Source: Jaapia argillacea MUCL 33604 (lineage: Eukaryota; Basidiomycota; Agaricomycetes; Jaapiales; Jaapiaceae). From it: a stretch of DNA of 64,000 nucleotides. The position numbers and the translations under genes were made by a program. Below the pieces are notes generated by a model. The model had not been told where the DNA came from. It worked only from the letters and a program-made list of their open reading frames with translations, and searched no databases. The stretch covers positions 84,212 through 148,211 of the forward strand of contig KL197740.1 in NCBI GenBank assembly GCA_000697665.1. Direction: 5' to 3'. This document shows, piece by piece, positions 1 through 56,974 of the stretch (position 1 is its first letter; the number at the start of each line of letters is the position of its first letter).

Positions 1-3000
1 ATGTCGTGTGGCATCGAAAATTGTACCAAGGTCGGCATCGAGGCCAATCGTGCTGAGAGCATGAAGTGCTTCTGCTCGCCCGGCGAACCAAACAGATTCT
101 AGAACAGCTGTATTTGCTCTCGCCTCACCATCCCAGGACTCAGGATTCAAGTGATCCAGCTTCTCCATCCGTGTAACCTTCAGTCGACGGTGGCCTGCAT
201 CAAGGTGTGGGTTACGGGCGAGGACCGCGTCGATGTCGACAGCTGCTCCGAGACGATCGACAAGTTGTTTGAAGTTGAAATTTGGGTTGTGGCCGCCTTG
301 CATGCGAAGTCGGCCAAATAACACCTCCAAACGATCATCTCCCATCCAGAATAGATAGATGTCCTCGTTACCATCCTCCTCTTGCTGCTTCGCAACACAG
401 AAGAATGCGTTCTTGACAGTAGTTTGCATGTCCGAGTAGAGTTGTGCAGGCATGAGGTTGGAGCGATATTTGCGAAATAGGATGAATGCCATGTGAGCAT
501 ATTTGCTCAGCGCAGTCAGCTGTTCCTTTAGGCTCCAGCAACGTGCAGGTGACAGATCACAACGTCCAATGAATGCATGGACAAAGCTGGAAAACATCTC
601 AGCGATGACACGGATAACTTTGACCTCTTGGAGGATACTGGGATTAGCATCTATCCCACCAATCTCGCGAATGGCCTGCACAAGTTCGATTGCACGTGGT
701 ACATCTTGAGCATCTGCAGGGTTCATTAGAACATCGATCTCGTGTTCGGAGTGATGTCCAGTCCGACAAAGATGACGAATCCATGTGTGGCGATTGATAA
801 TTGTATCGCCAACCAACATGCCCTGTTGGGTACGAAGAAGTCGAGCAATGCCTAATGATGACATTGTTAATTTAGAGTACCAAACATGGAATCGATGCAG
901 ACGAATGTTTAATCTCGTGTTTCCAGTCAAAATCGGCTGTAATGTCTCCATCTCCAACGTACATATTTAATCCAGGCAATCCACCAAGTCGCTTGTAAAG
1001 AGGATGTAAGGGGTCGATGGTGTACTTCATTAGCAGGAAGAAGACCATTGCTTGCCGACCTGCATCTCCATCAGATGCGATGGACCATATTGGACCATAC
1101 AGCGGTGCTCCGACCTGGTTCCACGACGAAATAACTGTTGTAAGTATCTGGGCAGACTCCTCAGGCGTCTCAGATTTACAGGTCAGAGATACGACAATCG
1201 GGAAGGCCCCACGAAGTTCGGTCCCAAACGATCCAAGAGCAATAACAGAGGCCTCTTTGCCATAGTGGATACGTCCATCAGCAAGGGCTTTTGCAATCAA
1301 CTCAGCACTCTCCAGGGTGGTGAGTTGCATGGGGACGGAGGGTCCATGCTTCCGACAAAATCCGCCTGCTGCATCAACATGGGGGAAGTAACATGCTTGT
1401 TCCTCCTGGCTAACCTCATCCCAGAAAACAGACATCCCTCGCCGAGGCAGACGAATGGGTTCGAGGGCTTGGGCCCTCTGCAGGAAGATTTCTCGCATAT
1501 TGAACTGAATTTCTTCGGCAGTTGGTATGCCCAGACTGGGCATGATACGTGTAAACGTCCGGTTACGACGGAGTGTGGTGATGGAGGGAATTGCAATGTA
1601 ATGATTGAGGGCGTAGAGTAGCTTACGTCCTCCAAGACGGGAAATAAGAACCGCCATATCAGAATCTACATGCCCATACCCTCGCGCTTGATAATTGCCG
1701 AGAAGGGAGTCCTCAAGTCTCGAGATGATCGTTGATAGGCCAACACCCTCTTTCATTGCTTGACGAATGAGCTGTTGAATGCGAGGAATATCACCCCGTG
1801 CTACAGCCATCAAGAGACTCCGAGAGGTTTGTTGCCGCTGCATGAGCGAAGCACATTTTCGACCCAGGTTTAAGCTCTGCGACGAGTCAGTAAGACTTCC
1901 TCCAAAGTGTTAGGATGATCTGGCTTACCTCACGTTTCAAAGCCAGGATTGTCTGGTCCCGCTCCTTCAAGAGATCCCGAAGCTGCTCGTGTGTGAGGTA
2001 CTTGTGGTTTGTATGAGCAGATACATGTCGAGCCATCACCGCGAGATGCTCAACCTCCTTAACAACCATCTGACATTGAGCACATGGACTGCCTTCCGAA
2101 ATGGAGAGCAGAGTGCAATGGTCGGAGCGGACATGAAAATCATGGCTGTTTCGCTCAACGGCGCAAAACCGGTAGCCAAGGCTCGATGGGTCAAATCCGT
2201 GGCGCTGGAAGGGATATGTTTCGAAGAAGTGATCCTTGGGCCAATTGAGCGGGATTCCGAGACATTCGATAAGGGAAGAGGAAACATGGGATGCTGGTGG
2301 CGAAAATGGTGGCGGAGGTGGCAGAGGTGGCGGAGGAGGTGGTGGTAGCAATGGTGGTATATCGGTCATGATGCCGTCGAAGTTCCTTAAAAATGATATG
2401 GATAAGTATCGCAGACACCAAAGATCGTGTCAAAAACCCTTACATTAATGAATCCATGTCCGACATCTGAGTGTCCCCAAAGTCGCAAGGTGCTACAGTC
2501 ACTGGTACTAGGTGGCCTTGGTTGGATATGAAAGGAATGGGGGCGGCGTGGAACAATCGGGGACCAGAGTGTGGTTGCAGAAGTGGTAATATGGGAAATA
2601 GGGCCTCTCGAGCAGCTCACGTTTGAGAAAGTGTGGCCTCCTGACCACGAACACGACACTTCAAACTCGACATATGGTTTTGAAGAGGGCCCATGTTCAT
2701 CCCACAGGAACCTGTCGTGATCCACTCAGAACAAGTAGGGCAGACAACACGGTATGTTCCATTGTTGGTATTAGTGTCCCAAGTAAGGTTCACTGCTTGA
2801 AGCGAAAAAGACGACGCGGCCGGCGCGTCGAGTTGGGTAGGAAGGGGGAGGGGTTGAGAGAATGGAGGCGGAAGATCTGGTGGGGACCAAACTGATGTGG
2901 AATCTAAGAGGGGGGAGAAATCCGGGTTTAAAGAATGACTGGTGGGAGAGATGGCGTTGCTTCGATAGGCCGAAGCACTGGAGTCATTGGGTACTGGAAT

Positions 3001-3369
3001 CGAAAGGAGTGAAGGAAAACAGCCTTGAGTGAAGGCTTCGGATGTGTGGCCAGGAAATTGGAAGGGCGTATTTTGATCGTCAACCGCCATGGCCTGACAG
3101 CTGGTGACCGGAAATGTGAGCGCGTCTTGCAATTCACGAGATCCATCAAACTCGAAATTGGTGAGGTTTTTATTTGCGTAACCATCTAGAAAGGAAGGAT
3201 CTAGTTGACCAAGACCTGGCCAAGAGGGTTGTGGAGTTCGTGGGGAATTAAAGAGCGAGGACGAGTGAGGGGGCTTCCAACCCAAACGTGGCGAACATTC
3301 GTGCAAGGGAAAGGTGTCTTCGGAGCCATTGAGAGATATGGACGAAGAGATAGGCTCATCGTCAAACAT
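1..3369 (-). pseudogene. transposase-like multicopy protein, partial, probably frameshifted
   Basis: Seen: exons 3369-2621, 2385-1929, 1876-~903 and ~851 to beyond the left edge; the first two junctions close in phase (introns 2386-2620 and 1877-1928). The N-terminus is Ser/Pro-rich with a C-x2-C...H-type motif near 2660-2750. Exon 2 opens with a poly-Pro run, then C-x2-C and H-x3-H residues and a short coiled coil. The third exon ends at DFDWKHEIK, and the downstream frame (LLRTQQGMLVGD, later DDRLEVLFGRLRMQGGHNP) is open to the edge. Known: I recognise this as a family repeated in many Agaricomycete genomes. Inference: the acidic-H-x-K block and the ExxFGxxRxxGGxNxN-like block resemble THAP9/P-element transposases. 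Odd: no GT-AG intron between 852 and 905 restores the frame without losing the conserved LLRT block, so a one-base frameshift is likely; an alternative 58-nt intron exists but deletes that block. The 3' end lies outside the window. Confidence 0.7.
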
Positions 3370-30639: not shown

Positions 30640-30775
30640 CATGGTCGCTGGCGTCGGCCCTCCGTTGGAGAATTTGCTAACCATTAGAGTTCATCCAAGT
30701 TTATCTGGACAACCCCCATCCCGTGGTTGTAAGGTTTGTTGGCGGACTCATTTTATTTCGGTGTCTTGGATGATT

Positions 30776-30788
30776 GGATCGATCATTC
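30776..30788. promoter_or_regulatory. conserved GGATCGATCATTC element, module 1
   Basis: Thirteen bases sharing a GATCGATC palindrome core with elements at 36085-36097 and 38539-38551. The element ends 138 bp before the Hsp70-like ATG and about 137 bp from the divergent gene's ATG, so it sits centrally in a shared promoter. Confidence 0.5.
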
Positions 30789-30925
30789 CGCTCTGGCTTC
30801 CAGATGCAGCCGCGAAGATGCTTTTCCAGCTGCAAGGTGTCCACGCACCAGCGCCTATACTAAGGCATATAACCGCCAAAACATTCAGTCACTTGGCATC
30901 ACACGTCTTCTTCAGCCTGATTGAA

Positions 30926-33353
30926 ATGCTCTCCAAAATTCCCAAGAAAGAGTACAACGGCTCTTATCGAAAACTCCTCATCGCTTTCGATGTGGGCACG
31001 ACATTCAGCGGGGTATCTTACAGCATTTTGGACCCAGGAACCGTTCCTCAACCGCGCGGCGTTAATAGGTATGTTCATCACACGAATCTCCGCTACCTTA
31101 CCCTGATCGTGCAACAGCTTTCCTGGTCAGAGCGAAGTCGGCGGTGACTGCAAAATCCCGTCCGTTATACTCTACAACGGTGATGGCTCCGTAAGAGCCG
31201 TTGGGTCTGAGGTATCGCAGGCGAAGGAGGATCTAGAGGAAGAAGAACAGGACGCTGTTGTGGAAGTCCGACGGTATCTCACTTACACTTATCACTGGCT
31301 ACTATAAGTCTCATCACCGCCATCGATATAGATTCAAGCTTCATCTTGCTCCCGAAAACATCAAATCCGCTTGGATCAACGACGCCAGCGTCCCACCCCT
31401 ACCTCCGGGAAAGACGGCCGTTGATGTCCTTGCGGACTTCTTGACCTATCTATACCGCTGCGCTCGCAAATACATTCGCGGGTCGGAGCCCAATGGTCCC
31501 GCCATGCTCGAGACTATCGAAGACAACATCGAATTTGTCTTGTCCCATCCTAATGGCTGGCGAGGCCCGCAACATAACGACATGCGTCAAGCGGCTATTA
31601 TGGCGGGCCTCATCCCCGCAACGGAAGCAGGACACGCTCGGTTGCAGTTTGTCACTGAAGGGGAAGCGAGCCTTCATTACTGCCTGGACTTCGTCAAGGA
31701 TTTCGGTAACATCGAGGTCGGATTTGTATTGATCTGTCCGAATTTCACCCTGACCTGACCTACAGGAGGGTTCTTCGGTACTCGTCATTGACGCCGGCGG
31801 AGGTACTATCGACTGCAGCTCCTACAAATTTATATCCCTGTCCCCCATAACCATTACGGAGATAGCGCAGCCTGGGTGTAAGTTCCGCTTCAACCCCAAC
31901 AATATGATGTTGACTTTTGCTTTAGGTCGCCTTGAAGGCTCCGAATCTGTCACCGCTCGGGCGGTTACATTCCTAAACGGTAATTATGGAGTCGATTTCC
32001 TGTAATCTGACTCTGAAGTTACCTTTGGCGATGCAGAAAAACTCAAGGGTTCCCCGTTTATCGCGGATGTAGGCACAATTGCAAGCAGATTCGATGAAAC
32101 CGTTAAGCGAACATTCAAAGACTCGAATAAAGCCCAACATGTCGATTTCGGACGAAAGGGTGACCACCGTCCTGATCTTGGGATCACTCGTGGAAAGTTG
32201 AAACTCTCAGGGTTGGTCTGTGATCCATTCCTGAGTTCCTCGTCACCGATCCTTTCCTTAGGGCCGAGGTAGAGTCTTTCTTCCAACCTTCTCTCGCGGG
32301 TGCGAGCGACGAGATCAAAAAGCAGCGAAAGTCTGCTCATCCCACCCATATTCAGGTATTTGCTTCTTCCGTCGAGTAAGGCTGATTGCTTACGTTATTA
32401 TCTAAGACGGCCTTTATGGTTGGGGGTTTCGCAGCGAACGACTGGCTGTTCTATCGTCTACGCGAAGAGCTTGAACAACGTGGAACCGAGTTGTTTCGAC
32501 CTCACCTGTATACGTACGTTTTGCTTTTCATTTCGCCATCTTGTCCTTGTTTCATGTGGTCTATAGAAATAAGGCTGTTGCCCACGGAGCGGTTTCTTCG
32601 TATTTAGATCATTTTGTGACATCTCGAGTCACTCGAGAAACCTTTGGCACCATAATCGGGGTTCTCTTCGACGACAGGAAGGCCGCTCACCGCGCAAGGG
32701 AAGACCAGGTATTCATCTCCCCTGTTGGAATGCCGCTTCTACCTGGCGCCTTCCGGGCGATTATAAACAAGGTGACTTAGTTCTTCCTGTCCAGAAATAC
32801 TACTTACCGAGCACACCCTCTCATCACAGGGTACCGTTGTTCGCGAGGATTGCGAATATGATACCCGCTGCTCCCTCTCGAGCCATCACCCATCCCGCCT
32901 GAACGAGGTAACCGCCGACATCACGTGTTATAGAGGGGACAAGACGGAAGTCGATTTCATTGATGAGGATCCGGGTTCGTCTCCTCGCCTTGGCTGGTGG
33001 TTGCCGCGGCCATATTGAATCTGCTACAGAAAACTTCCACCTGCTTGGCATTGTCAAGGCTGACACGTCGAATCTCCGGCATATGCTTCGCCCTCAACTT
33101 GGATTATTTGGCATCCCCTTCTTCGAAGTCGAGTTCCGTGTTGTCTTCCTTTGTGGCCAAACGGAGCTCAAGGCTTTCCTTTGTTGGATGGAAAATGTGC
33201 GTTTGTTTTCTTCATTTTCGTTCGTATTGTCCTTACGGGTTCGATTCGCCTCCAGGGTGTTGAGAAAAGGTTCGATCCTTACGATTGTCACTCCGATGAT
33301 TTTATGACATTTTATTCAGGAGCCCCGCCACCATCGTCTACACTGAGGTGTAG
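30926..33353 (+). CDS. atypical Hsp70/actin-fold ATPase (HSPA12-like), copy 1
   Basis: Thirteen exons: 30926-31068, 31118-31273, 31332-31716, 31766-31877, 31926-31979, 32037-32211, 32262-32355, 32407-32513, 32567-32771, 32830-32974, 33030-33196, 33256-33269, 33320-33353; 596 aa. Known: these proteins share the Hsp70 actin-like ATPase fold but have a divergent substrate domain; they are expanded in Agaricomycetes and most are uncharacterised. Seen: phosphate-1 loop AFDVGTTFSGVSYS (Asp22), connect motif VTEGEASLHYCLDF (~207), phosphate-2 DAGGGTID (237-244), and adenosine-site VGGFAANDWL (378-387). The C-terminal third (CYRGDK, LGIVKADTSNLRH, FFEVEFRVVFLCGQTELKA) matches copy 3 and replaces the canonical peptide-binding domain. 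Intact. A 14-nt penultimate exon (GVEKR) is shared with copy 3. Confidence 0.9.
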
Positions 33354-34451
33354 CTCCATCAGAAAAGCGTCTGAGTAATATGGAATCGGTATGGACCAGT
33401 ACAGACCTGTCCATACCATCTCATACCACCTCATCCGCTTCTCCGATGTCGTTCTCCCGTACAACCCACCAGCGGTGTGCGTTGATTGGTCTGGCTTCTA
33501 CTTTCCCTTGTCTTGAAGTTCTTGCATGTTTGCCTGTCAATATATATTCCCTTTTTCATTTCCCTGCAAAAGCATATCTTGAACGTACGCATCGCCACTT
33601 GTTAATGATATAAGACTGTAGTCGAACTGCCCGCATGTACGATGCAATATTGGTCACGATAACATCGATTAGTTCTCCAATCGTGTGCATCCGGCGGGCG
33701 ATTTTCCGCCTACTTATTACAGTATAGTACTTGGCTTCATGGTCTCTTTCCTCTCCCACACGCTTATCTGCAACTGCCCTCAACTCTAACTCGGAAGTAT
33801 GATCGGTGGTTCAAGGTACTATATTGCGCAAGTATCCAGGAACTTCTGAGGAGCATTTTCATCGTGGAGGACTCTGAAGCGTCTGGGTGAGTTATCCGTG
33901 CTCCCTCCAATCCCCGTCCGTTCTTTCTCCGATCGTGCTTGGCGTATCCTTCTACCATCTCCTCTGTCCATGACCTTGTGAGACTAACCGGAACCTGACC
34001 TTTAGGTGATATTTCGTGCATGAATCTTCATGCCTGGAGTCAACCTCGAGTAGCAAACAGCGAGAAGTTGGGCAATCCGGGATGGCGTTGGGCAGATTGT
34101 GGGATGTGTTCTAAGAAGGGCCGGATGTACGTTCCTTTATGTTTTCACTGCCTTCCTCCCATGACTCAGTCTTCACCGACTTCTCCATCTTCACTTCCTA
34201 TCTTGTTCTTCGCTGCCTACTCATCGCTCTCCTTCTTATGTCCTATTCCCTTCTTACGTATCGGATACAGTGCTGTCATGCCAATGTTAAGGAGAGCGAT
34301 GGTGGGCAGCCATTTCCAGCGACTAACCTCCGCGATATCAGCGACGTGGTCAATCCTCTCGCCATCTAGCCCCTCCCTGGCAAAATACGTCAGGTCGCCT
34401 CATTCATGATACGTGCAAGCGCGTATTCCCGTGACTTTAAGAGGATTCTCG
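33354..34451. other. spacer between modules 1 and 2
   Basis: The first ~130 bp after the stop resemble the 3' flank of the third ATPase copy (GAGT-ATATG then paired TACCACCTC blocks), so the duplicated unit included 3' flanking DNA. Apart from the GMC exon remnant listed separately, nothing was recognised. Confidence 0.55.
34006..34126 (+). pseudogene. decayed GMC oxidoreductase exon
   Basis: The stretch matches the GMC exon at 26412-26541: both carry M-N-(F/L)-(Y/H)-AW, then EKLGNPGW-W followed by AD/ED, and both are flanked by an acceptor (TTTAG here) and a donor GTACGT. About nine bases are missing relative to the intact exon and the residues between are degraded. No adjoining GMC exons were convincingly found, so this is a fragment left from duplication of the 26-41 kb segment. 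Confidence 0.75.
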
Positions 34452-35977
34452 CTATACAATCCCCATCAACGACTCCAGGGCAACCTCAGGTTTGAGCAAC
34501 AACCTCGTCTCGTCCTCAACCCCTCCTACGGACCTTTGAATTCGCCTCAGGCCGAGTCGAGTGGTACATAAGATTGGCGTCTCGACTTTTGCTCCTTCAT
34601 CGCTCTGGTTGGGATCCGCCTCCATATCATCCATCCTCGCCGATACAAAAGTAGAGCCCGGCGTCTCAGACACGAGTTCCATATCGCTCGAAGTCGTTTC
34701 TTGTTTGATGACCAAGTGGATTTGCACCACCGACTGTGCGATTCGGCTCAAGTCCCCCCGGACCTCTTCTTCGATTCGATCCTTAATTTGCGTCTGGCTA
34801 TGTCCCCCCCCTGCAAGAACTACCACGTCGGCTATTCGGTGGAGGATGTTCAACACGAAAGTTTCTTCAGCATCGGAACTCTCTGCGATCGACCTTGCAT
34901 GTCGATGCGTCAAGGAGCGCCATCTGCCGGCGACGGGTTGAGGCTCTGTCAACCAAGCAAGTTGGTGAGTTATCTTATCCAATAATCTTGGCCGATGGAT
35001 GACAAACCATCTCGTCGCAGACTTTCATACAGGTCTGACAATACCCGATTAACTTCCCATCTCTCCATAGTGTAGTTCGGGAACCAAGCATTAATGGCGC
35101 CGGATGCCTCCCACGTTAAAACTCCTTGAATCGCGGGCTGTACCAGGACAGGGTCATCTCTCAGTGACTTCAAGCCACCAACCATGTTGACCCCAAGGAT
35201 AGTCGAAAGGCTTTCCTCGGCGGCCCTAAGGCCATCCCCGCCTTCTCGCGGTTGACCAAACTCGGAATTGAAGGTATCTTCAATCGTCGCTGCAACTTGA
35301 TAAATGAGGGTATTTAGATCTTTGATCAGGCGAGTGATCTCGGACCCCGAGTACGGATCGGCCTTTGTCAAGAATTGCTCTGCAGCTCGTAAATCAGAGG
35401 TCTTTTGACGATATAGCGACTGTAGATCGGCATGAGCCTTCTCTCTGTCCTTCAACTTCGCCTCGAGGCCTTGTATTTGCCGGAGTTGCTCCGAGTTTGC
35501 GTCCTTCGCGGCTCGCAGGTCTCGAGTCAACCCCTGGATTATCGCGTCATTCGCCAAGAGACCTCTCCGTTGCTCTTCCTCCAGAGCTTGTTTCTAATTT
35601 TCAGGTGAGTTCCTATGACGATGGACCTTTCCATCATTGTTGCGCACCTCGATTTTGGTTTCCTCTGGTGATTTCCTATCCCCTTTCTCATCTGTCACTT
35701 CAGTCTCGTCAAGCAACGCTGGACCTCCAGTCTCCTCGACCTCCTTAGCTCTGTTGATTTTAATGTCGTTCTCATGACGGGGTGTCTCGTCCCATTGCGC
35801 TTCGACGTCTCGGGATTTGGGTGTATCTTGAGTAGGCCCTCCCCGGGTATTTCGCCTTCTGATCGCTCTTAGGACAGAAAGAACGGGTGCGACGAGGTAG
35901 CGCTTAAGAGGTGCACAGAGCCAACTGACGGCGAGAGTTATCCAGAGCCAGGCGGTGCGAATAATGTGCTCGAGCAT
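34452..35977 (-). CDS. membrane-anchored coiled-coil protein, copy 2
   Basis: Three exons: 35977-35648, 35593-35008, 34945-34452; introns 54 and 62 nt; 469 aa. Same architecture as the 29157-30639 gene, with a more clearly hydrophobic N-terminal segment (LWITLAVSWLCAPLKRYLVA) followed by a basic RAIRRR patch, which favours an N-terminal membrane anchor. Conserved blocks in order: EAQWDETP, coiled coil with LKDREKAHADLQSLYRQKT, DPYSGSEITRLIKDL, YQVAATIEDTF, DDPVLVQPAIQGVLT, GRWRSLTHRHAR, HLVIKQETTSSDME, LLLKPEVALESL. About 15 extra residues precede the last block compared with copy 1. Intact, in contrast to its truncated ATPase neighbour. Divergent from the ATPase gene at 36223 with 245 bp between starts. 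Confidence 0.77.
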
Positions 35978-36084
35978 GGTGCATCAAACTACTTGAGAGT
36001 GATTGTTGGCAGAGGTTGCGACATGCCCGTCACACAGGGTCATAAGATTTACTCATGTACTCCTCGTGTTTTTGGTGATTTGTG

Positions 36085-36097
36085 TGATCGATCGTTC
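36085..36097. promoter_or_regulatory. conserved TGATCGATCGTTC element, module 2
   Basis: Second copy of the shared element; ends 126 bp before the ATPase ATG. Differs from the other two at the first base and at one base before TTC. Confidence 0.5.
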
Positions 36098-36222
36098 CGC
36101 AACACGCTAGTAGGTCGAAGCTTGCCCCATTGTGGAGGTAGCGCGGACTCCGCATACTTATTACTCCAGTCTATCTAGGCCTCCGAGACAGAAACTTTCG
36201 CTTTCAAGAAACTCTCCCTAAG

Positions 36223-38064
36223 ATGCCACAACTCTCCGACATCCCCGAGTGGTACGATGGCCCTTGTCGGAAACTCGTCCTTGCTTTCGATGTCGGCACT
36301 ACCTTTAGCGGTGTATCTTACAGTATCATGAACCCAGGAACTATTCCACAAGTGCGTGGTGTCAGCAGGTATGAATCACTCGTTCTTCGGGCTCTCACCC
36401 ACTGATGGCACAACAGCTTTCCGGGTCAGAGCGAAGTTGGTGGTGGCTGTAAGGTCCCGTCTGTTGTCCTCTACAATCGTGATGGCTCCGTGCGAGCGGT
36501 TGGCTCGGAGGCGAAGTTAGCGACAGATAACCTAGATGAGGAAGATGAAGACGAAGTCGTGGAAGTCAGGCGGTACGTCTTCCGTCAATTCGCAACTACC
36601 ACAAGATTCAACTCATCCTTGATTGAATCACAGATTCAAACTTCACTTTGCCCCCAATAGCATGAAATCCGCCTGGATCAGTGACACCAGCATCCCAGCC
36701 TTGCCTCCAGGGAAGACGGCGGTCGACGTGCTTTCGGTTATCTTCGAGTACCTATACCGTTGTGCCCGAAAATACATTCGAGCGTCCGAACCCAACGGTC
36801 CTGCGATTCTGGAGACTCTCGAAGACAATATCGATTTTATCTTGTCCCACCCAAACCAATGGGGGAGCCAAGAAGAAGCCGATATGCATCGAGCCGCGAT
36901 TACGGCGGGTCTCGTCCCAGATACAAAGGAAGGTCATGTTCGTTTGCACCTAGTAACGGAGGGTGTGGCGAACCTGCATTACTGTCTTGATTTTGTCAAG
37001 GACTTTGGTGATTTCGAGGTCGGGTTTTTACTATCTGCCAAGGATTGCCAGCTAATATGCGTCATAGGTGGATTCGTCTGTGGTGATTATCGATGCTGGC
37101 GGAAGTACGATCCAATGTAGTTCTTACAAATTTACGAACCTTTCCCCTTATTCCATCACGGAGTTAGCCCATCCCGGATGTGGGTGTTTTGTTACTCCTA
37201 CGAGGCGCCTCTGACAGTTTCTTCAGGTCATCTGGAAGGCTCCGAATTCGTCACTACCCGCGTGGTGACCTTCTTGAACGGTCAGCATCCCCCTTTGCTC
37301 CGTGATCTGGCCTTGAAGTCTTGCTTTTGGATGTAGAAAAATTCAAAGGATCGCCTTACGTAGCTGATGTAGACACGATCGCAAGCCGCTTCGATGAAAC
37401 CATCAAGCGAACGTTCAAAGACTCGAATAAAGCTCAATCCATCGATTTTGGGCGAAAGGGCGATCATCAGCCCAGCCTCAGCATCATCCGCGGGAAGCTG
37501 AAACTCACAGGGTTAGTCGGTGACTCTGAAGTCCAGTGACGAGTTACTCAGCTTTATCCTAGCGCTGAGGTAGACGCCTTTTTCAGGCCTTCTCTGATGG
37601 GCGTTATCGACGAGGTCAAGAAGCAACAAATTTCTGCTCATCCCACACATATTCAGGTGGGCGCAGTAATTCCCTTCAAGCGAAGCGAGCTCATGTCGTT
37701 CAGACGGCTTGCCTGGTAGGAGGTTTTGCCGCAAACGATTGGCTTTTTTGGCAACTACGCCGGGAGTTGGAGCAATATGGAATCAAGTTGTTACGCCCTC
37801 ATTTATACCCGTCCGTTCCTACGTTCCATTGCCACATCTGGCGGCTCATCTTGCGGTGTAAACAGGAAACAGGCCGTTGCCCACGGAGCCATTTCTTCAT
37901 ACCTCAATCCCAAAACGGTCACCCGTATCGAAACACAGGACCAACTTTTCATAAGCCCCTTCGGAGAGGGACCTCCCCGGGGTGCATTCCAAAGACGCTG
38001 GGTTCCTTGGATGTGCTTTGCATTCGTTTCCTGCATGCTCGTCAAGATCTGGTTCAGGTTTTAA
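36223..38064 (+). pseudogene. atypical Hsp70/actin-fold ATPase, copy 2, C-terminally truncated
   Basis: Nine exons: 36223-36368, 36417-36572, 36634-37018, 37068-37179, 37227-37280, 37337-37511, 37563-37656, 37704-37810, 37866-38064; 475 aa if read to the first stop. Seen: phosphate-1 FDVGTTFSGVSYS is intact. Odd: the phosphate-2 loop reads DAGGSTIQ instead of DAGGGTID, replacing a Gly and the last Asp; about 25 codons are missing after AHGAISSYL; the frame then leaves the family sequence after GAFQ and ends in an unrelated tail with the last four exons of the other copies absent. The open frame up to that point and conserved splice sites suggest recent decay, or a retained shortened protein. 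Labelled pseudogene on the loss of the C-terminal third. Confidence 0.75.
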
Positions 38065-38694
38065 ACGGTCGCCTCAGTCTACGCTGTGGCTCGATGTAGT
38101 TCACCTTCCTGGGATCGACACAAATCTACACGTGAGTATCCTACCATCTCATCTGGTGCTTCCGCTCTGGTTCTTCTCGCTTACCCTTCACTGATAAGTT
38201 TCTTCTCCCGGTACTTCTCGTCCCTCTCTGACATATACTCGCTTTCGCCACTTGTTGCACCATGTCGTTGTACCTCGGAGTGTGGGATGGGGTTCTTGTT
38301 CGTTGATCTGTCAGCATTTCTTGGGATTGCTGTAATGGCTCGTATGGCAACGCATTGGGTCGAAGGGCAGAGTTTATCATCCTCAACCAGACGACGGGGA
38401 CGGTTGTGCCCAGGAATATCTGGGGCCTCCAGGCCCCTGAGAGACTTCATTAATCATAGAGGTGTTCCTGGCACCCTCATTCCATGCTCTTGTGGTTTGC
38501 TGGAATGCCTCGTTGAAGTCGTGGAGTTTGTGGTGATTGGATCGATCATTCTACTTTGGTCCAACCATGGCTGTGATGCTTCATTTCCAGCTACGAAGAT
38601 TCATTTTTTACATCGTGTATTCCACACTTTGCCTATCTCAGCCGATATACACCTGGCACCATGCAATTGGTTGTGCATCCAGACATCCTCCAGC
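38065..38694. other. spacer before ATPase copy 3; partner gene absent
   Basis: Holds the conserved element at 38539 and T/C-rich sequence, but no trace of the coiled-coil partner's conserved blocks on either strand. The third unit therefore lacks its divergent partner within this window. Confidence 0.5.
38539..38551. promoter_or_regulatory. conserved GGATCGATCATTC element, module 3
   Basis: Identical over 13 bases to the module 1 element and embedded in a longer match (TGATTGGATCGATCATTC). Ends 144 bp before the ATPase ATG. Confidence 0.5.
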
Positions 38695-41144
38695 ATGGTT
38701 ACGACGCTTTCCAAGATCCCCAAGAAAGAATACGATGGCACTTGTCGAAAACTGTTGCTTGCTCTCGATATTGGTACAACGTTCAGCGGCGTATCTTACA
38801 GTATACTGGACCCAGGAACTATTCCGCAAGCGCGCGGCGTTAATAGGTGTGCACCACTCCTCTACTCTTTGTTATCGTCTACTGATCGCGCTATAGCTTC
38901 CCTGGTCAGAGCGAAGTCGGCGGCGACTGCAAGATCCCTTCCGTTGTCCTCTATAACGGTGATGGCACCGTTCGTGCTGTTGGTTCCGAGGTGAAGCTGG
39001 CAAAAGCGGATCTCGATGAAGAGGAACAAGATACTGTCGTTGAAGTCAGACGGTGTGCCTTTTCTGGCAGCTCACTCCTGTCTGACTTTTCTCATTGCAT
39101 TCATCAAACATAGATTCAAGCTTCATCTCGCTCCTGAGAGCATGAGATCGGCATGGATCGACGACGCTAGCGTCCCACCCTTACCTCTCGGGAAAACGGC
39201 AGTCGACGTGGTTTCGGACTTCCTAGTTTACCTTTACCAGTGTGCGAGAAAATATATCCGCGCATCCGAACCCAATGGTCCTGCTATAATGGAAACTATC
39301 GAGGACAACATCGACTTCATCCTATCCCACCCAAATGGATGGCGAGGTCAACAACAAGCCGACATGCGTCGAGCCGCGATCAAGGCTGGCCTTATTCCTG
39401 AAACCGAAACAGGAGATTCTCGGTTGCAGTTTGTCACCGAAGGAGAGGCCAGCTTACATTATTGCCTGGACTTCGTTAAGGATTTTGGCAACATCAAGGT
39501 CGGGCCTTTCTAACCCTGCTCATCCCCCCCGCTCATATCTATCACATGTCATAGGTCGATTCGTCCGTGCTTATCATCGATGCAGGAGGAGGCACCATCG
39601 ACTGTAGCGCCTACAAATTTACAGATCTCTCCCCCGTTTCAATCACAGAGATAGCCCAACCGGGGTGTAGGAATCGCTTTCAAGTTCTCTAAGTCGATGC
39701 TGACCCTTCCACCAGGTCGTCTTGAAGGATCTGAATCTGTCACCGCCCGAGCCATCACATTCTTGAAAGGTAATAGTGGAATCTTTGTCCTGCGAGCTTA
39801 GACTGAAGTCTTATTTGACGAGGTAGAAAAGTTCAAAGGTTCTCCATACGTAGCCGACGTCGCCGTCATCGGCAACCGCTTCGACGAAACCGTCAAGAGG
39901 ACGTTCAAAGACTCAAATAAAGCTCAACATGTCGATTTTGGACGCAGGAGTGATCATCAGCCTGACCTCGGAATCACACGTGGAAACCTGAAACTCACAG
40001 GGTCAGTCGTGGATCGAACGTCCAACATCTCGATGCTAATTTGGGACCTAGTGCCGAAGTGGAATCTTTTTTCAAGCCTTCTCTCGTGGCTGCTATCGAC
40101 GAGGTCAAGAAGCAGCGAGATTCTGCTCATCCCACCCATATTCAGGTAGGTACGAGCGCTTTTCAAGCGAACAGAGCAACTTATACGTGGTATTGAGATC
40201 GCTTTCATGGTCGGAGGGTTTGCGGCCAACGATTGGCTCTTCTATCAGTTGCGCGAAGCGATGGAACAGGAAGGAATCAAATTATTTCGTCCCCACCTGT
40301 ATACGTGCGTCTCTCAATCCGGGCGCCCTATCATGACTGGCCACTCATCCATGGATCACAGGAACAAGGCTGTCGCCCATGGATCGGTGTCTTCCTATTT
40401 TGATCACTTTGTGACTGCTCGCATCACCCGGGAAACGTTTGGCACCATCGTGGCAACCCCGTTCGATCCCACAAACGTTACCCACATTTTGAGAAAGAAC
40501 CAGCTCTATATCAGTCCTTCCGGCGAGGCGCTTCTGCCTGGTGCATTTCAAGTCATCATCAAAAAGGTGAGCCGCTCTGAGTTTGATGTCACTGAGGCCC
40601 CACCTCATATCACCCTAGGGCACCGTTGTAACAGAGGACGCTGAATTTTCTGAATATTGCGTGTGTACACGCCACGACCCGTCTACTCTCGACAAGTTGG
40701 CCGCGCCCATCACCTGCTACAGAGGAGGGAAACGCGACATCGAGTGGGTCGATGACGATATTGGTTCACCTCACGCTCTCGACTACCCATACGTTTGTGT
40801 GCTGATTGTTTTCCAGATAACTTCAACATTCTTGGCGTTGTCACGGCCGATACGTCAAACTTGCGCTACCTCCTTACCCCCCAGATTGGCATGTTTGGCT
40901 TGCCCTTCTATCAAGTCGTCTTCCGAATTATCTTTCTCTGCGGGAAGAGAGAAATGAAGGCATATATATGTTGGAAGGAGAATGTCCGTTTTTTTTTCCA
41001 ATGACGACCTTTCCTGTGTTCTGACGGCTTCTGATTACATACAGGGAGTGGAGAAAAGGTTTGGCACTTGGTTATCTTTGTGGACAAATGCACTGACATT
41101 TATCATGTAGGAGCCCCGCTACTATTGTCTATACTGCTGAGTAG
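38695..41144 (+). CDS. atypical Hsp70/actin-fold ATPase (HSPA12-like), copy 3
   Basis: Thirteen exons: 38695-38846, 38897-39052, 39114-39498, 39555-39666, 39716-39769, 39827-40001, 40052-40145, 40198-40304, 40362-40566, 40619-40763, 40817-40983, 41045-41058, 41111-41144; 599 aa. Exon lengths 2 to 13 are identical to those of copy 1, which strongly supports both models. Seen: LDIGTTFSGVSYS, TEGEASLHYCLDF, intact phosphate-2 DAGGGTID, VGGFAANDWLF, then LGVVTADTSNLRYLL and VFRIIFLCGKREMKA in the C-terminal third. The phosphate-1 loop has Ile in place of Val, a conservative change. No sign of decay. Roughly 80% identical to copy 1 by eye. Confidence 0.9.
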
Positions 41145-51357: not shown

Positions 51358-51813
51358 CTAGATAGTAAAGCATGAGCATAGCTTAAGAATGAGACAAGAA
51401 CACCTACTTTGAGTGTACTTCATACAGATTTCCAGGAGGTCATCAGCATAGGATGCAATGACTTGTTTATCTTTCTTCACCCTCTCTCCAAAATATAACC
51501 TCCCAGAAAACTTTGATTCCACATCTTTCATCAGCATGCTGTACTGGTTGCTGCTGTGAAATGCTGTAGCAACATGGATAATGGAGGCCCAAATCTTCAC
51601 TTGATGATTAAATTTTCTGAAATAAAGGCTATCATGCATAATGATTGTAAGGCCTGTTGAAAATACAAATATAGTCAGGTGGTAGAGTAGTTGAAATAAA
51701 GAGAAAAACGAGCCAGCAAGGAAAGAAACCATATGAAATATGTTTTGTGTTTGAACAGGAGGCTGAAGAAGATCATTAATTGATTGGCTAAAGGGAGACC
51801 AGTACTCAAACAT
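51358..51813 (-). CDS. open frame, possible 3' part of the GTPase gene
   Basis: An open frame of 151 codons on the same strand as the GTPase gene upstream, with AT-rich composition matching that gene. It reads as hydrophobic N-terminal half, then charged helix-forming sequence (QYSMLMKDVESKF, DKQVIASYADDLLEI). A GTTTCT...ACAG segment inside it could be an intron. I do not recognise it as a domain. Placing it in the GTPase transcript is inferred from strand, composition and the splice-like repeat array between them; it could equally be a random frame in AT-rich DNA. Confidence 0.3.
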   Translation of the reverse strand: MFEYWSPFSQSINDLLQPPVQTQNIFHMVSFLAGSFFSLFQLLYHLTIFVFSTGLTIIMHDSLYFRKFNHQVKIWASIIHVATAFHSSNQYSMLMKDVESKFSGRLYFGERVKKDKQVIASYADDLLEICMKYTQSRCSCLILKLCSCFTI

Positions 51814-51919
51814 ACAAAAGCATTCAAAGGAACCTCAACCATGGATTCAAACATCTAAGGGCATAAAATATATCATTATGGAAGATCCTGGCAAAAAATG
51901 GAAGAAATAAGCATAAGTA

Positions 51920-54900
51920 CTTACATCCTAACATAACAAAAGAATGGAAAAAAAACATAGTGAGTAGAAGACACAAGCCCAGGGATGTTAATGGCATGTA
52001 CTTACAACCCTAGCATCATGAAGGATATAGAAATAGCTGGTTAGCAGAACATATAGGCCCACAGATGTAGATATGATGTACTCACATGCTAAGCATCATG
52101 AAGGATAGAGAAACAACCAGTCAGCAGAATGCACTGGACCAGGGATGTAAATGGCATGTACTCACACACTAGTATCATGAAGGATAGAGAAACACCTGGT
52201 CAGCAGAATGCACAGGCCCAGGGATGTAAAATGTATGTACTCACATACTGGCATCATGAAGGATAGAGAAACAGCTGGTCAGCAGAATGCACAGGCCCAC
52301 GGATATATATAAATGACATGTACTCACACCCTGGCATCATGAAGGATAGAGAAACAGCTGGTTAGCAGAATACAGGTCTAGAGATGTAAATGGCATATAC
52401 TCACATTCTGGCATCATGAAGGATAGAGAAATAGCTGGTCAGCAGAATGCACAGGCCCACAGATGTAAATGACATGTAATCACAGCCTGGCATCATGAAG
52501 GATAGAGAAATTGCTGGTTAGTAGAATACAGGCCCAGAGATGTAAATGGCATGTACTCACATACTGGCATCATAAAGGATAGAGAAACAGCTGATCAGCA
52601 GAATACACAGACTCAGAGATGTAAATGACATGTACTNNNNNNNNNNNNNNNNNNNNCATCATGAAGGATAGAGAAACAACTAGTCAGCAGAATGCACAGG
52701 CCTAGAGATGTAAACGGTATGTACTCACAGCCTCATGAAGGATAGAGACAGCTGGTCAGCAGAATACACAGGCCCACAGATGTAAATGACATGTACTTAC
52801 ATACTAGCATCATGAAGGATAGAGAAACAGCTGGTCAGCAGAATGCACAGGCCCAGAGATGTAAATGCCATATACTTACATCCTGGCATCATGAAGGATA
52901 GAGAAACAGTGGTCAGCAGAATGCACAGGCCCACAGATGTAAACGGCATGTACTCACAGGCTGGCATTATGAAGGATAGAGAAGCAGCTGGTCAGCAGAA
53001 TGCACAGGCCCAGAGATATGAATGGCATATACTCACACACTAGCATCATGAAGGATAGAGAAACAGCTGGTCAGCATGCACAGGTCCACAGATGTAAATG
53101 CCATGTACTCACATACTGGCATCATGAAGCATAGAGAAACAGCTGGTCAGCAGAATACACAGGCCCACAGATGTAAATGCCATGTACTCACATACTGGCA
53201 TCATAAAGGATAGAGAAACAGCTGGTCAGCAGAATACAGGTCCAGAGATGTAAATGGCATATACTCACATCCTGGCATCATGAAGGATAGAGAAACAGCT
53301 GGTCAGCAGAATGCACAGGCCCAGAGATGTAAATGCCATGTACTCACATACTAGCATAATGAAGGATAGAGAAACAGCTGGTCAGCAGAATGCACAGGCC
53401 CACAGATGTAAATGACATGTACTCACATTCTGGCATCATGAAGGAGAGAGAAACAGCTGGTCAGCAGAATGCATAGGCCCAGAGATGTAAATGGCATGTA
53501 CTTACATACTGGCATCATGAAGGATAGAGAAACAGCTGGTCAGCAGAATGCACAGGTCCAGAGATTTAATGGTATGTACTCACAGCCTGGCATCATAAAG
53601 GATAGAGAAACAGCTGGTCAGCAGAATTCACAGGCCCAGATATATAAATGCCATGTACTCACATCCTGGCATTATGAAGAACAGAGAAACAGCTGGTCAG
53701 CAGAATGCACAGGTCCAGAGATATAAATGGCATGTACTCACACCCTGGCATCATGAAGGATGGAGAAACAGCTGGTCAGCAGAATGCACAAGCCCAGGGA
53801 TGTTAATGGCATGTACTTACAACCTAGCATCATGAAGGATAGAGAAACAGCTGGTCAGCAGAATACACATGCCCAGAGATGTAAATGGCATGTACTCACA
53901 AACTGGCATCATGAAGAATAGAGACACAGCTGGTCAGCAGAATGCACAGGCCCAGAGATGTAAATAGCATATACTCACACGCTAGCATTATGAAGGATAG
54001 AGAAACAGCTGGTCAGCAGAATGCACTGGCCCAGAGATATAAATGCCATGTAGTTACACCCTGGCATCGTGAAGGATAGAGAAACAGCTGGTCAGCAGAA
54101 TGCACAGGCCCAGAGATGTAAATGCCATGTACTCACACCCTGGCATCATGAAGGATAGAGAAACAGCTGGTCAGCAGAATGCATAGGCCCACAGATGTAA
54201 ATGACATGTACTCACATGCTGGCACCATGAAGGATAGAGAAATAGCTGGTCAGCAGAATGCACAGGTCCAGAGATTCAATGGCATATACTCACAGGCTGG
54301 CATCATAAAGAATAGAGAAACAGCTGGTCAGCAGAATTCACAGGCCCAGATATGTAAATGGCATGTACTCACAGTCTGGCATCATGAAGCATAGAGAAAC
54401 AGCTGGTCAGCAGAATACACAGGCCCAGAGAGGTAAATGTCATGTACTCACACCCTGGCATCATGAAGGATAGAGAAACATCTGGTCAGCAGAATGCACA
54501 GGCCCACAGATGTAAATGACATGTACTCACATACTGGCACCATGAAGGATAGAGAAATAGCTGGTTAGCAGAATGCACAGGTCCAGAGATTTAATGGCAT
54601 GTACTCACAGGCTGGCATCATAAAAGATAGAGAAACAGCTGGTCAGCAGAATTCACAGGCCTAGATATGTAAATGTCATGTACTCACATCCTGGCATCAT
54701 GAAGGATAGAGAAACAGCTTGTCAGCAGAATGCACAGGCCCAGAGATATAAATGGCATGTACTCACAGTCTGGCATCATGAAGGAGAGAGAAACAGCTGG
54801 TCAGCAGAATGCACAGGCCCAGAGATGTAAATGCCATGTACTCACACCCTGGCATCATGAAGGATAGAGAAACAGCTGGTCAGCAGAATACATAGGCCCA

Positions 54901-55505
54901 CAGATGTAAATGGCATGTACTCACAGGCTGGCATTATGAAGGGTAGAGAAACAGCTGGTCAGCAGAATGCACAGGCCCAGGGATGTTAATGGCATGTACT
55001 TACAACCTAGCATTATGAAGGTGAGAGAAACAGCTGGTCAGCAGAATACACAGGCCCAGATATATAAATGGCATGTACTCACAGTCTGGCATCATGGAGC
55101 ATAGAGAAACAGCTGGTCAGCAGAATGCACAGGTCCACAGATGTAAATGGCATGTGCTCACAAACTGGCATCATGAAGGATAAAGAACAGCTGGTCAGCA
55201 GAATGCACAGGCCCAGAGATGTAAATGGCATGTACTCACACCCTGGCATCATGAAGGATAGAGAAACAGCTGGTCAGCAGAATGCATAGGCCTCCGGATA
55301 TAAATGACATATACTCACATACTGGCATCATGAAGGATAGAGAAACAGCTGGTCAGCAGAATACAGGTCCAGAGATGTAAATGGCATATACTTACATCCT
55401 GGCATCATGAAGGATAGAGGACCAGCTGGTCAGCAGAATGCATAAGCTCAGATATGTAAAAAGCATGTGCTCACATTCTGGCATCAGGCAGGATGTACAT
55501 TTAGC
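51920..55505 (-). repeat. 79-bp tandem repeat array with exon/intron-like units
   Basis: About 45 units, spaced 77-79 bp when measured between successive GCTGGTCAGC positions (53298, 53377, 53456, 53535, 53613, 53692). Read on the minus strand, a typical unit is a 30-nt segment (CTGTTTCTCTATCCTTCATG, then ATGCCAGNNT), then GTGAGTACATGG, 20 further bases, and TTCTGCTGACCAG, i.e. donor, CTGAC branch-site-like sequence and acceptor of a 49-nt intron. Variants in the donor are mainly GTGAGT versus GTAAGT, and in the branch CTGAC versus CTAAC, all functional in principle. Thirty nt keeps the frame, and two frames of the 30-mer lack stops. The array contains an assembly gap, so the copy number is a minimum. 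Confidence 0.92.
52637..52656. other. assembly gap (20 N) inside the array
   Basis: Twenty unspecified bases within the tandem array. The true length of the missing DNA is unknown. Confidence 1.
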
Positions 55506-55571
55506 ACATACAGCTTCTCTGGTGAGTAGTTATGATAATTACCTAGATTATTGATAAAATTTGCACTTTCT

Positions 55572-56974
55572 TCACTGCAGCAGAGATTCTAGTTCATAAA
55601 ACTCACCCATAGGTGTGGGAACCATTTCACAAGTCTCTTGATTATACTTTTCCCATTCCATCCCAAATGCAATAGTGTGAACACATCTATGAACCACCAT
55701 GTTAGTAAATGCACGTAGTAAGTATGTATAAGTTAACATTGTTTCATAATGTCTCTGCATATTAGTTAGTCAGGGCTATTCTTCTAATCAGCATAATCAC
55801 TTACTGAATGCCATACTTCATAGCTAGCTGCATATTGTTTGACTGTACTAAGACAAATAACTTTTGCAAATTCGAAGAACTTTTTAGTGCCTTGGCAGTT
55901 TTTTCTGACAGTCTGGTGCAGGTAGCATCCACTTTATGCATATCTACAACAGTATACTTCAAGTCAATCTCCAATTAACTGTCAATCACCTACCACTAAG
56001 ATACAGATACTCTGTTGGTGGAAATGGCTTTGAATTGACTGCAGAAAGATAGTGTTCTTCAAATTCTTGAATTGCCAGTGCAGGAGCCTTCTGCCTTGCC
56101 TCTCATATCTTCATACCATGATTTCGGAGTTCATTGCATGCTTTGAGAACTAGACCATCCCATTTTGTGAAAACTGCAATGACAGGCACTACTTGCAAAC
56201 TAATGAACTAGTATAAGCTGATTCATAGTGTCAGATCTCACCATTGCCTGTGCCATGGTTGAAAAAGGCAGCCTCTGCTGGAGACAGGACTCGGGCCCCA
56301 TCTGTTGGAATGCAGTACCTAGATAGACATATATTGTGTTATATCATAGATGAGACCACCACTACCAAGCATGTTCTTACCAAATTATGTGCAATTGCTT
56401 CTCGAGATCACCACTCTTTCTTCGAGACTCAATGAAGTCATGCACTGCCTGAATTTCACCAGTAGACCCAGCTTCAAACCCCCTGGAGTCATGGAATACA
56501 AAGGCAGGATTGCTTGCAAATGTAACCTCGTACTCTACATGATGATGACCACGCTGTTCAGCAGGGTTCCGATGATCAATGCTCTGGATAAAAATGAGGG
56601 TTGGAAGAGGTGTACCAGGGCAGTGGGACCCTCTAACAAAGAAGTATCAATCTGAGATGAACTTAATGGGTGTAACATGATTGTAGAGAACTGGGGCTCA
56701 CCACATTTCCGTCCTGATCTCGAACGACGGGCTGCTCTGTCGTGTCACAGATCTTTTGCAGGATAGTAGTCTTGCCTGAGTTTGCTTTCCCTATGATGAG
56801 GACACGGAATCGACGGTACTGCTGCCTTATCTCGACGATATCAGGATCGTCGTCGTCGGGAGGATTGGACAACACGTTATCGTCGGTGGGTGCGCTGGTT
56901 AGGTTGATCTCTTGATCATCGAGTTGCTTCGTCAGATTGGCGCTGTCGGTAGGAGGGAGTGATGTCTGAGACAT
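55572..56974 (-). pseudogene. P-loop GTPase of an expanded Agaricomycete family, with premature stop
   Basis: Exons can be followed from ATG 56974 (exon 1 ends 56702; exon 2 56651-56616; exon 3 from 56583; further exons to about 55572), with AT-rich composition. Known: this family (G-domain proteins with RFRVLIIG-x-x-x-x-GKT) is repeated in Agaricomycetes; roles unknown. Seen: an acidic leader (DDDDPDIVE), then G1 RVLIIGKANSGKTTILQ, G3 VFHDSRGFEAG (DxxG), G4 VFTKWD, and YLYLSDMHKVD, with conserved spacing. Odd: an in-frame TGA at 56103-56105 interrupts the helix after G4 (between GMKI and EARQKAPALAIQEF), consistent with a CGA to TGA change; the sequence beyond it stays recognisable. The intron 56584-56615 would be 32 nt, short for this genome. 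The 3' end merges into the tandem array. Pseudogene, or a gene with a sequencing error. Confidence 0.7.

Follow-up and report, generated by a model that had tools for sequence, protein, structure and literature searches.

The window analysed here, a stretch of 64,000 nt from the basidiomycete Jaapia argillacea MUCL 33604 (contig KL197740.1, positions 84,212 to 148,211), contains a minus-strand tandem array (51972..55494) whose units, about 45 in number, are 79 bp long. As judged from its sequence, each unit is a 76-nt intron plus an exon of one 3-nt codon (NNT) in phase 0, and the array most probably belongs to the coding region of a GTPase-like gene, where consecutive one-codon exons would give rise to a hypervariable protein stretch. 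Tandem Repeats Finder detects one array in the window, with a period of 79, 44.7 copies and 85% matches, and reports the same 51972-55494 array at a period of 473 bp as well. Segmentation with a hidden Markov model (HMM), together with the spliced frame, gives 46 one-codon exons (51925..55477, minus strand), the first being AAT at 55475-55477 and the last GAT at 51925-51927; of these, 44 have a length of exactly 3 nt, one is GGTT (52006-52009) and one lies in a 20-base N gap within the array (52637..52656). An earlier note, made from the letters alone, had described about 45 tandem units of 79 bp that share the polarity of the GTPase-like gene upstream, nearly all of them with a donor, a branch-like site and an acceptor on the minus strand. 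All of this holds, and the array even lies inside that gene. The note was also right to divide the unit into a micro-exon and an intron, though not in their sizes, which it put at 30 and 49 nt.

The donors of the 46 units in the window read GTGAGT (33), GTAAGT (8), GTGAGC (2), GTAACT (1) and GTGATT (1), and the acceptors CAG (34), TAG (10) and GAG (1), with one of each falling in the N gap. A unit profile was built from the window units on the minus strand without any assumption about exons, and its alignment took in the window and loci L009 to L014, that is, six paralogs (one weak match outside an array was dropped). Across these paralogs, profile columns 40-41 are AG in 137 of 137 units, column 39 is only ever C or T, and columns 45-46 are GT with one exception per column among 138 units, so that GT is lost in 2 of 138. 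Apart from two C, column 47 has only G or A, and the branch-like A in column 10 is present in 131 of 131 units. The splice signals are therefore kept among the units, as the earlier note had stated. Three bases separate AG from GT in the consensus YAG NNT GTRAGT, with a CTRAY element about 30 nt 5' of the acceptor; we take these to be the splice consensus and the branch site, respectively. The first two exon bases have an entropy of 1.5 to 1.9 bits in every group, and the third is T in 128 of 138 units. With a tandem unit of 10-100 bp the array falls within the definition of a minisatellite, but the invariant AG and near-invariant GT flanking hypervariable codon bases do not fit an ordinary one, the unit of which would be free of coding constraint. 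A recursive splice site, with zero nt between AG and GT, does not fit units that have 3 nt there, and neither does a stwintron, as every unit carries its own donor, branch-like site and acceptor. A search for an RNA gene within the introns gave no Rfam match at gathering score between 51000 and 57500.

Arrays of this type recur in the genome, which was searched over 43.7 Mb in 95 contigs. The chained pattern GTRAGT-N(50-80)-YAG-NNN-GTRAGT-N(50-80)-YAG-NNN-GTRAGT has 317 matches, with positions listed for 100 places, versus 5 for the reversed pattern; a second pattern with one GAT exon has 53 matches versus 0 when reversed. The G-domain exon of the window gene has 42 matches, and in at least 21 of these loci the G exon is followed on its 3' side by an array of the same orientation (C1 two, C3, C4, C6, C8, C12, C13, C18, C24 three, C26, C30, C32 four, C50, C52 and C53). 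This number is a lower bound because it draws on 100 of the 317 places and on a second pattern restricted to GAT exons. Among the arrays listed, those on C22 and one on C48 have no nearby G-domain match. The latter (G000:C48:222981-223069, minus strand) is a match of the 77-nt type, on a contig for which no G-domain match is listed.

The introns of these arrays form at least five distinct families, with units of 79, 77, 79, 78 and 70 nt; the family of the window is referred to below as 79a. To the eye their consensus introns bear no resemblance, yet alignment against shuffles places each of the ten pairs higher than its shuffle mean (P 0.008 to 0.258, with five pairs below 0.05). An old common origin or shared splicing signals may lie behind this resemblance, and the one-codon reading is independent of whether the families are related. 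In the 77-nt genes, the upstream exon ends with ...WYPW (WYLW in L041) plus one residue, in phase 0, at 5/5 loci; this last codon encodes M, G, K, R or D and the frame is open, so variability starts directly after the conserved WYPW. Behind the array, a 51-nt phase-0 exon (...NFC(N/T)WL...) follows in 4/4 of the 77-nt loci read through, as found by script for L041 and L048 and by eye for L040 and L042, L039 ending within its own array.

Over 16 loci, 302 HMM matches were obtained, of which 294 have both AG and GT, and in 293 of these 294 exactly 3 nt lie in between. The other eight comprise one N gap, four matches without a left AG (the upstream exon ends of L040, L041 and L048, and one in L044) and three GC or AT donors. 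At the level of the DNA sequence, many consecutive 3-nt exons thus occur within single genes. Stops in phase 0 are rare: outside 79a only 1 of 153 codons is a stop, versus a permutation mean of 5.96 (P(<=1)=0.0067), 79a being left out of this test because its mostly constant T makes phase-0 stops nearly impossible. When all 293 codons are concatenated, 3 stops appear at offset 1 and 60 at offset 2 (26 of them in 79a).

Diversity per column was compared for the eight arrays with at least 15 units, namely those of the window copy (A), two further 79a copies (B and F), L039, L042, L048, L046 and L047. In this order, codon position 1 ranks 1, 1, 1, 1, 5, 1, 1 and 1 among the 70-79 columns, and codon position 2 ranks 2, 3, 2, 2, 2, 2, 3 and 2. 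The diversity (pi) of codon positions 1-2 is 0.53-0.73 versus intron means of 0.11-0.24 in 8/8 arrays, with AG and GT at or near zero. Next, each unit was paired with its nearest relative by intron sequence (17 to 44 complete units per array). Within these pairs, 4.7-15.3% of intron sites differ, as do codon position 1 in 41-72% and position 2 in 48-72% of the pairs, which amounts to a ratio of 3.4 to 11.5 between positions 1-2 and the intron. Codon position 3 differs in 0% of the nearest pairs in the window and in 9% in copy B, even though a change from T to C would be silent. This greater divergence of the first two codon bases suggests selection for different amino acids. The leading residues are Y, A, D, G and T in 79a, D, F, E, L and V in the 77-nt arrays and E, L, Q, D and A in the 70-nt arrays. 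A separate observation concerns position +12 of the 79a intron (column 56), which is nearly codon-like in diversity (pi 0.62 in the window, 0.68 in copy B); the 70-nt arrays peak at +12 or +14.

DNA searches with two pieces of the array found the 79-nt unit of 79a only at four places on C32, on C18 and on C50 (lower bounds). After masking of the units, the six loci can be aligned with one another through their flanks for hundreds to thousands of bases, and the paralogous stretches are about 69-91% identical. Six of the G-domain exon matches stand out at 82-100% identity, and all six array loci have this exon on one side; the C-terminal exon has six genome matches and no others, on the opposite side of the arrays. 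All 79a copies found sit within paralogous genes at the same gene position, which speaks against a free-standing satellite and also against the self-propagating one that the earlier note had considered. As assembled, copies A to F have 46, 36, 4, 5, 7 and 46 single codons; these are assembled lengths only for the window, B, C, E, L041, L043-L045 and L047, the arrays of which contain N gaps, while D is free of them. The aligned paralogs display GT-AG introns. When copy D is spliced accordingly, the ATG, the P-loop, the G-domain, the exon ending in ...IIKRLIGWFPHIW, the codons A-Y-Y-D-D and the exon IFAAVAKDLLNAS are all open (348 residues), and the frame of copy E is open from the ATG to the array.

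In the window, the last ordinary exon before the array (55607..55686, minus strand, as are all exons of this gene) ends with ...KRLVKWFPHLW at TGG/GTGAGT in phase 0. Behind the array follows a 39-nt exon (51816..51854; MFESMVEVPLNAF) that is in phase 0 at both ends and has the donor GTATGT; its other two frames contain stops in copies A and E (checked by eye). As the upstream exon ends after a whole codon and the 39-nt exon starts with one, a phase-0 3-nt exon fits both sides. A phase-1 reading of the exon before the array was rejected: it would place stops in the codon string, and phase 0 followed from the alignment with copy F together with an intron GTTARN...CATAG and, independently of that intron, from the 77-nt genes.

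The remainder of the host gene was delineated from the spliced frame, open frames and alignment of the paralogs. Exon 1 (56702..56974) encodes the P-loop GKANSGKTT and is followed by exon 2 (56616..56651), exon 3 with the G-domain (56381..56553; FVFHDSRGFEAGS), which is covered by the G-domain matches, exon 4 (56242..56318), exon 5 (55994..56188; VPVIAVFTKWDG), exon 6 (55805..55943) and the 17-nt exon 7 (55738..55754) with the donor GTTAAC. The C-terminal coding region common to the six array-bearing paralogs lies at 51358..51675. Between the last ordinary exon and the first one-codon exon, ATAATCTAG is directly followed by GTAATTATC at 55534..55551 on the minus strand, a candidate zero-length exon as far as its function can be judged from the alignment. 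This segment (ATAATCTAGGTAATTATC) has the same letters in the five readable paralogs, amid apparent intron, with an acceptor and a donor juxtaposed. We presume the host to be GTPase-like from its P-loop and TKWD motif. In Pfam, the protein of copy D has no family over the cut-off (best Arf, 0.0043, and MMR_HSR1, 0.0061), and a shorter piece from the window gives NACHT at 0.00068, also below the cut-off.

The 70-nt arrays on C22 come 3' of NACHT/STAND genes at three places, so that NACHT (STAND) hosts are found on C22, whereas the host in the window is GTPase-like instead. A piece of the L047 gene matches NPHP3_N (PF24883) at 8.5e-24 and NACHT at 4.7e-07. Of the 55 NPHP3_N matches in the genome, three precede C22 arrays of the same orientation, on their 5' side (C22:372191 -, 508167 + and 573671 +); no NPHP3_N match is listed in the vicinity of the arrays that C22 has at 522.7k and 597.7k. 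One exon of L047 ends with ...DILCGVRLMK in phase 0, followed by GTGAGT, after which the 70-nt units give the codons KILQEKHVVIEQTLDQIAAAHEEEPEAKQAALCLDE until an N gap; further upstream this gene has a TGA in frame. In L046 (C22:367500-373500), positions 2901-3335 of the reverse complement are an insertion of 435 bp that has TG...CA ends, is accompanied by a 5-bp target duplication (ATGGT) and splits the array of a NACHT gene.

The splice pattern, its phase, the exon length and the rarity of stops are read from the DNA itself, and from them we infer that the spliceosome uses these sites. By intron definition on the introns of about 76 nt, the exon ending in ...WFPHxW would be linked with a series of single codons, to which the conserved exon 3' of the array would be attached in turn. 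The introns would be removed one after another, leaving a hypervariable protein segment as long as the array's codon count, and the intron-plus-codon unit would multiply by tandem duplication. Since each exon is 3 nt in phase 0, any of them could be skipped with the frame intact, and a single gene might give many variants, a repertoire of the kind cited for Tuber. The occurrence of such arrays in both GTPase-like and NACHT/STAND genes suggests a variable sensor segment for recognition. More tentatively, and in our view rather improbably, the arrays might serve as combinatorial codon decks, with each exon keepable or skippable and a gene with 45 of them able to encode very many variants, as a source of variable recognition surfaces in two receptor-like families that recruited at least five introns, either convergently or from one old origin. 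If true, this would be receptor diversification in a fungus by splicing alone, at single-residue resolution.

Several observations weigh against the one-codon reading. Exon 5 of the window copy is interrupted by an in-frame TGA, and this copy also has the 4-nt exon GGTT; the TGA is found at the same codon in copies B (L009) and F (L010), where D and E have CGA, and copy C is without an ATG and has a TAG in exon 1. Four of the six copies of the 79a subfamily may therefore be dead. An intronless retrocopy, looked for in the search, was not found. Because the training units of the HMMs had 3-nt exons, the models are biased towards this length, and the unconditioned profile covers the 79a family only. 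One stop does occur inside an array, in L046, adjoining the insertion resembling a long terminal repeat element. Every one of the eight arrays has some highly variable intron column (largest pi 0.50-0.68), and codon position 3 differs in 31-85% of the nearest pairs in six arrays; because the third base varies there, the contrast between replacing and silent changes rests on A and B. Finally, 3 nt is too short a spacing for simultaneous binding at both splice sites of an exon, which would require the introns to be removed sequentially.

The possibility that the window copy is a dead gene with a relic array, only other family members being functional, has about an even chance. The TGA at 56103-56105 and the 4-nt exon point that way, whereas the frame of copy A is otherwise open over eight exons and AG and GT are kept in all 45 readable units, so that any loss in this copy would be recent. 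The question bears on the window copy and not on the nature of the array. The shared TGA in exon 5 of A, B and F might reflect recurrent C-to-T change at a CpG, or something odder. As assembled, the open copies D and E have 5 and 7 codons and the TGA copies A, B and F have 36 to 46, although the N gaps, chiefly that of E, make this uncertain.

Two other explanations of the array itself appear improbable. In the first, the whole array would be one long intron, with the flanking exons joined and the YAG NNT GTRAGT sites either unused or serving stepwise removal. Phase 0 is indeed also kept when all single codons are skipped, and the segment at 55534-55551 resembles a zero-length ratchet point. 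This explanation nevertheless leaves unaccounted for that diversity is higher between the splice sites than in the introns in 8/8 arrays, that 293 of 294 spacings are exactly 3 and that stops are rare in the codon frame; between the AG and GT of a true ratchet point there are no bases. The second, to which we give the same low probability, is an introner-like insertion, in which near-identical young introns entered an old coding exon at each codon boundary. It would directly account for codons differing more than introns, and the order of the codons is almost without repetition (with as many as 14 lags tried in each of six arrays, P<0.02 was reached at lag 5 in the window and at lag 4 in L039 and nowhere else). 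On the other hand, introners are near-identical introns spread across many unrelated genes, and the 79a intron was found only in the six paralogous loci (lower bounds); the window array is also reported at the 473-bp period. Moreover, the identity of the third base in the codon tends to be specific to the array, which would be expected of codons copied along with their units: this base is T in 129 of 140 codons in 79a and G in 6 of 6 in the sole 78-nt array, although it is mixed in the 77-nt (T 46, A 14, G 13, C 3) and 70-nt arrays (T 32, A 21, G 7).

The weakest alternative is that of the earlier note, a 49-nt intron with a 30-nt exon giving a ten-residue repeat, and it can practically be discarded: segments from CTGACCAG to the donor do measure 30 nt in 35 of 42 cases in the window, but five measure 29, 29, 31, 31 and 23 nt and two ran over two units; its acceptor, the CAG in CTGACCAG, varies in both A (column 13, 126 A and 6 other) and G (column 14, 127 G and 4 other) where the AG 27 bases downstream is invariant; the branch-like A would stand just four bases 5' of the acceptor G; and the 3-nt spacing is common to other arrays too. 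The exon is one codon instead. The comparison of variability among positions that the note had proposed as a check of its splice sites thus turned out against its acceptor, and in favour of an AG and GT at or near zero diversity around highly diverse codon bases.

The earlier note knew of nothing of this type in fungi, which does not stand. According to passages in PMC4986451, PMC3689799 and PMC10197012 that cite Iotti et al. (2012), the NACHT-ANK (nank) genes of Tuber melanosporum, an expanded NLR-type family, are diversified via alternative splicing of multiple or tens of codon-sized 3-bp microexons, and the same passages link these NLR-like genes to nonself recognition. Tens of 3-bp exons in NLR-like genes, as those passages describe, are shared with the arrays reported here, and the C22 hosts are NACHT/STAND genes too. 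Here, however, the window host is GTPase-like, the fungus is a basidiomycete, and the arrays are made of tandem introns with hypervariable codons, Tuber being compared through the citing passages alone. PF20151, a basidiomycete family, has 46 matches in the present genome. As Tuber is an ascomycete, the mechanism cited for truffle NACHT-ANK genes would occur in two gene families and probably in two fungal phyla.

Hypervariable repeat regions in fungal NLRs are also known from the HNWD/nwd family of Podospora, according to a passage of PMC4986451. Both systems have arrays of similar units in which certain codons are diversified, and the HNWD/nwd genes are described there as genes of nonself recognition; unlike the protein repeats of that family (WD, ANK, TPR), the unit here is mostly intron, and one codon each would reach the protein. 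Families of many small exons are described in PMC5825161 and PMC9168663 for schistosome micro-exon genes and aphid bicycle genes, the latter rapidly evolving. Single-codon exons, tandem-copy introns and GTPase-like and NACHT hosts appear to set the present arrays apart. Zero-nucleotide-exon recursive splicing in insects likewise has an acceptor and a donor nearly back to back, unlike the one codon between the sites in 293 of 294 cases here. Fungal stwintrons (PMC5639578) resemble the arrays as unusual short-intron clusters in fungal genes, and differ in that one intron interrupts a splice signal of another; the introns of the present arrays are each complete and adjoin one another, separated by a codon.

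Exons of this size have precedents. The lipS genes of Dactylellina haptotyla have two 3-nt exons according to a passage of PMC5639578, and 3 nt was the smallest exon characterised before a single-nucleotide exon, for which intron definition combined with recursive splicing was proposed (PMC4674806). Within the open literature, mainly at the level of abstracts and with most subscription journals outside it, we recognised no account of such arrays in GTPase genes or in basidiomycetes; one paper on P450 genes of a basidiomycete (PMC1184071) uses the word 'microexons'. What would be new is the basidiomycete setting, the GTPase hosts, the tandem intron arrays and the diversity signature.

Should splicing retain these codons, the protein segment encoded between two conserved exons would be written residue by residue, an extreme gene structure. 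Genes of this kind are likely to be missed by standard annotation, and a simple search for the junction can reveal them in any genome. The numerical signature of constant splice letters around hypervariable codon bases also allows testing whether fungi diversify sensors by splicing. Elsewhere in the window, at about 30700-40600 on the plus strand, lie repeated similar open reading frames (KKEYxGxxRKLLxAxDxGTTFSGVSYSILDPGT...), which resemble copies of an Hsp70-like gene.

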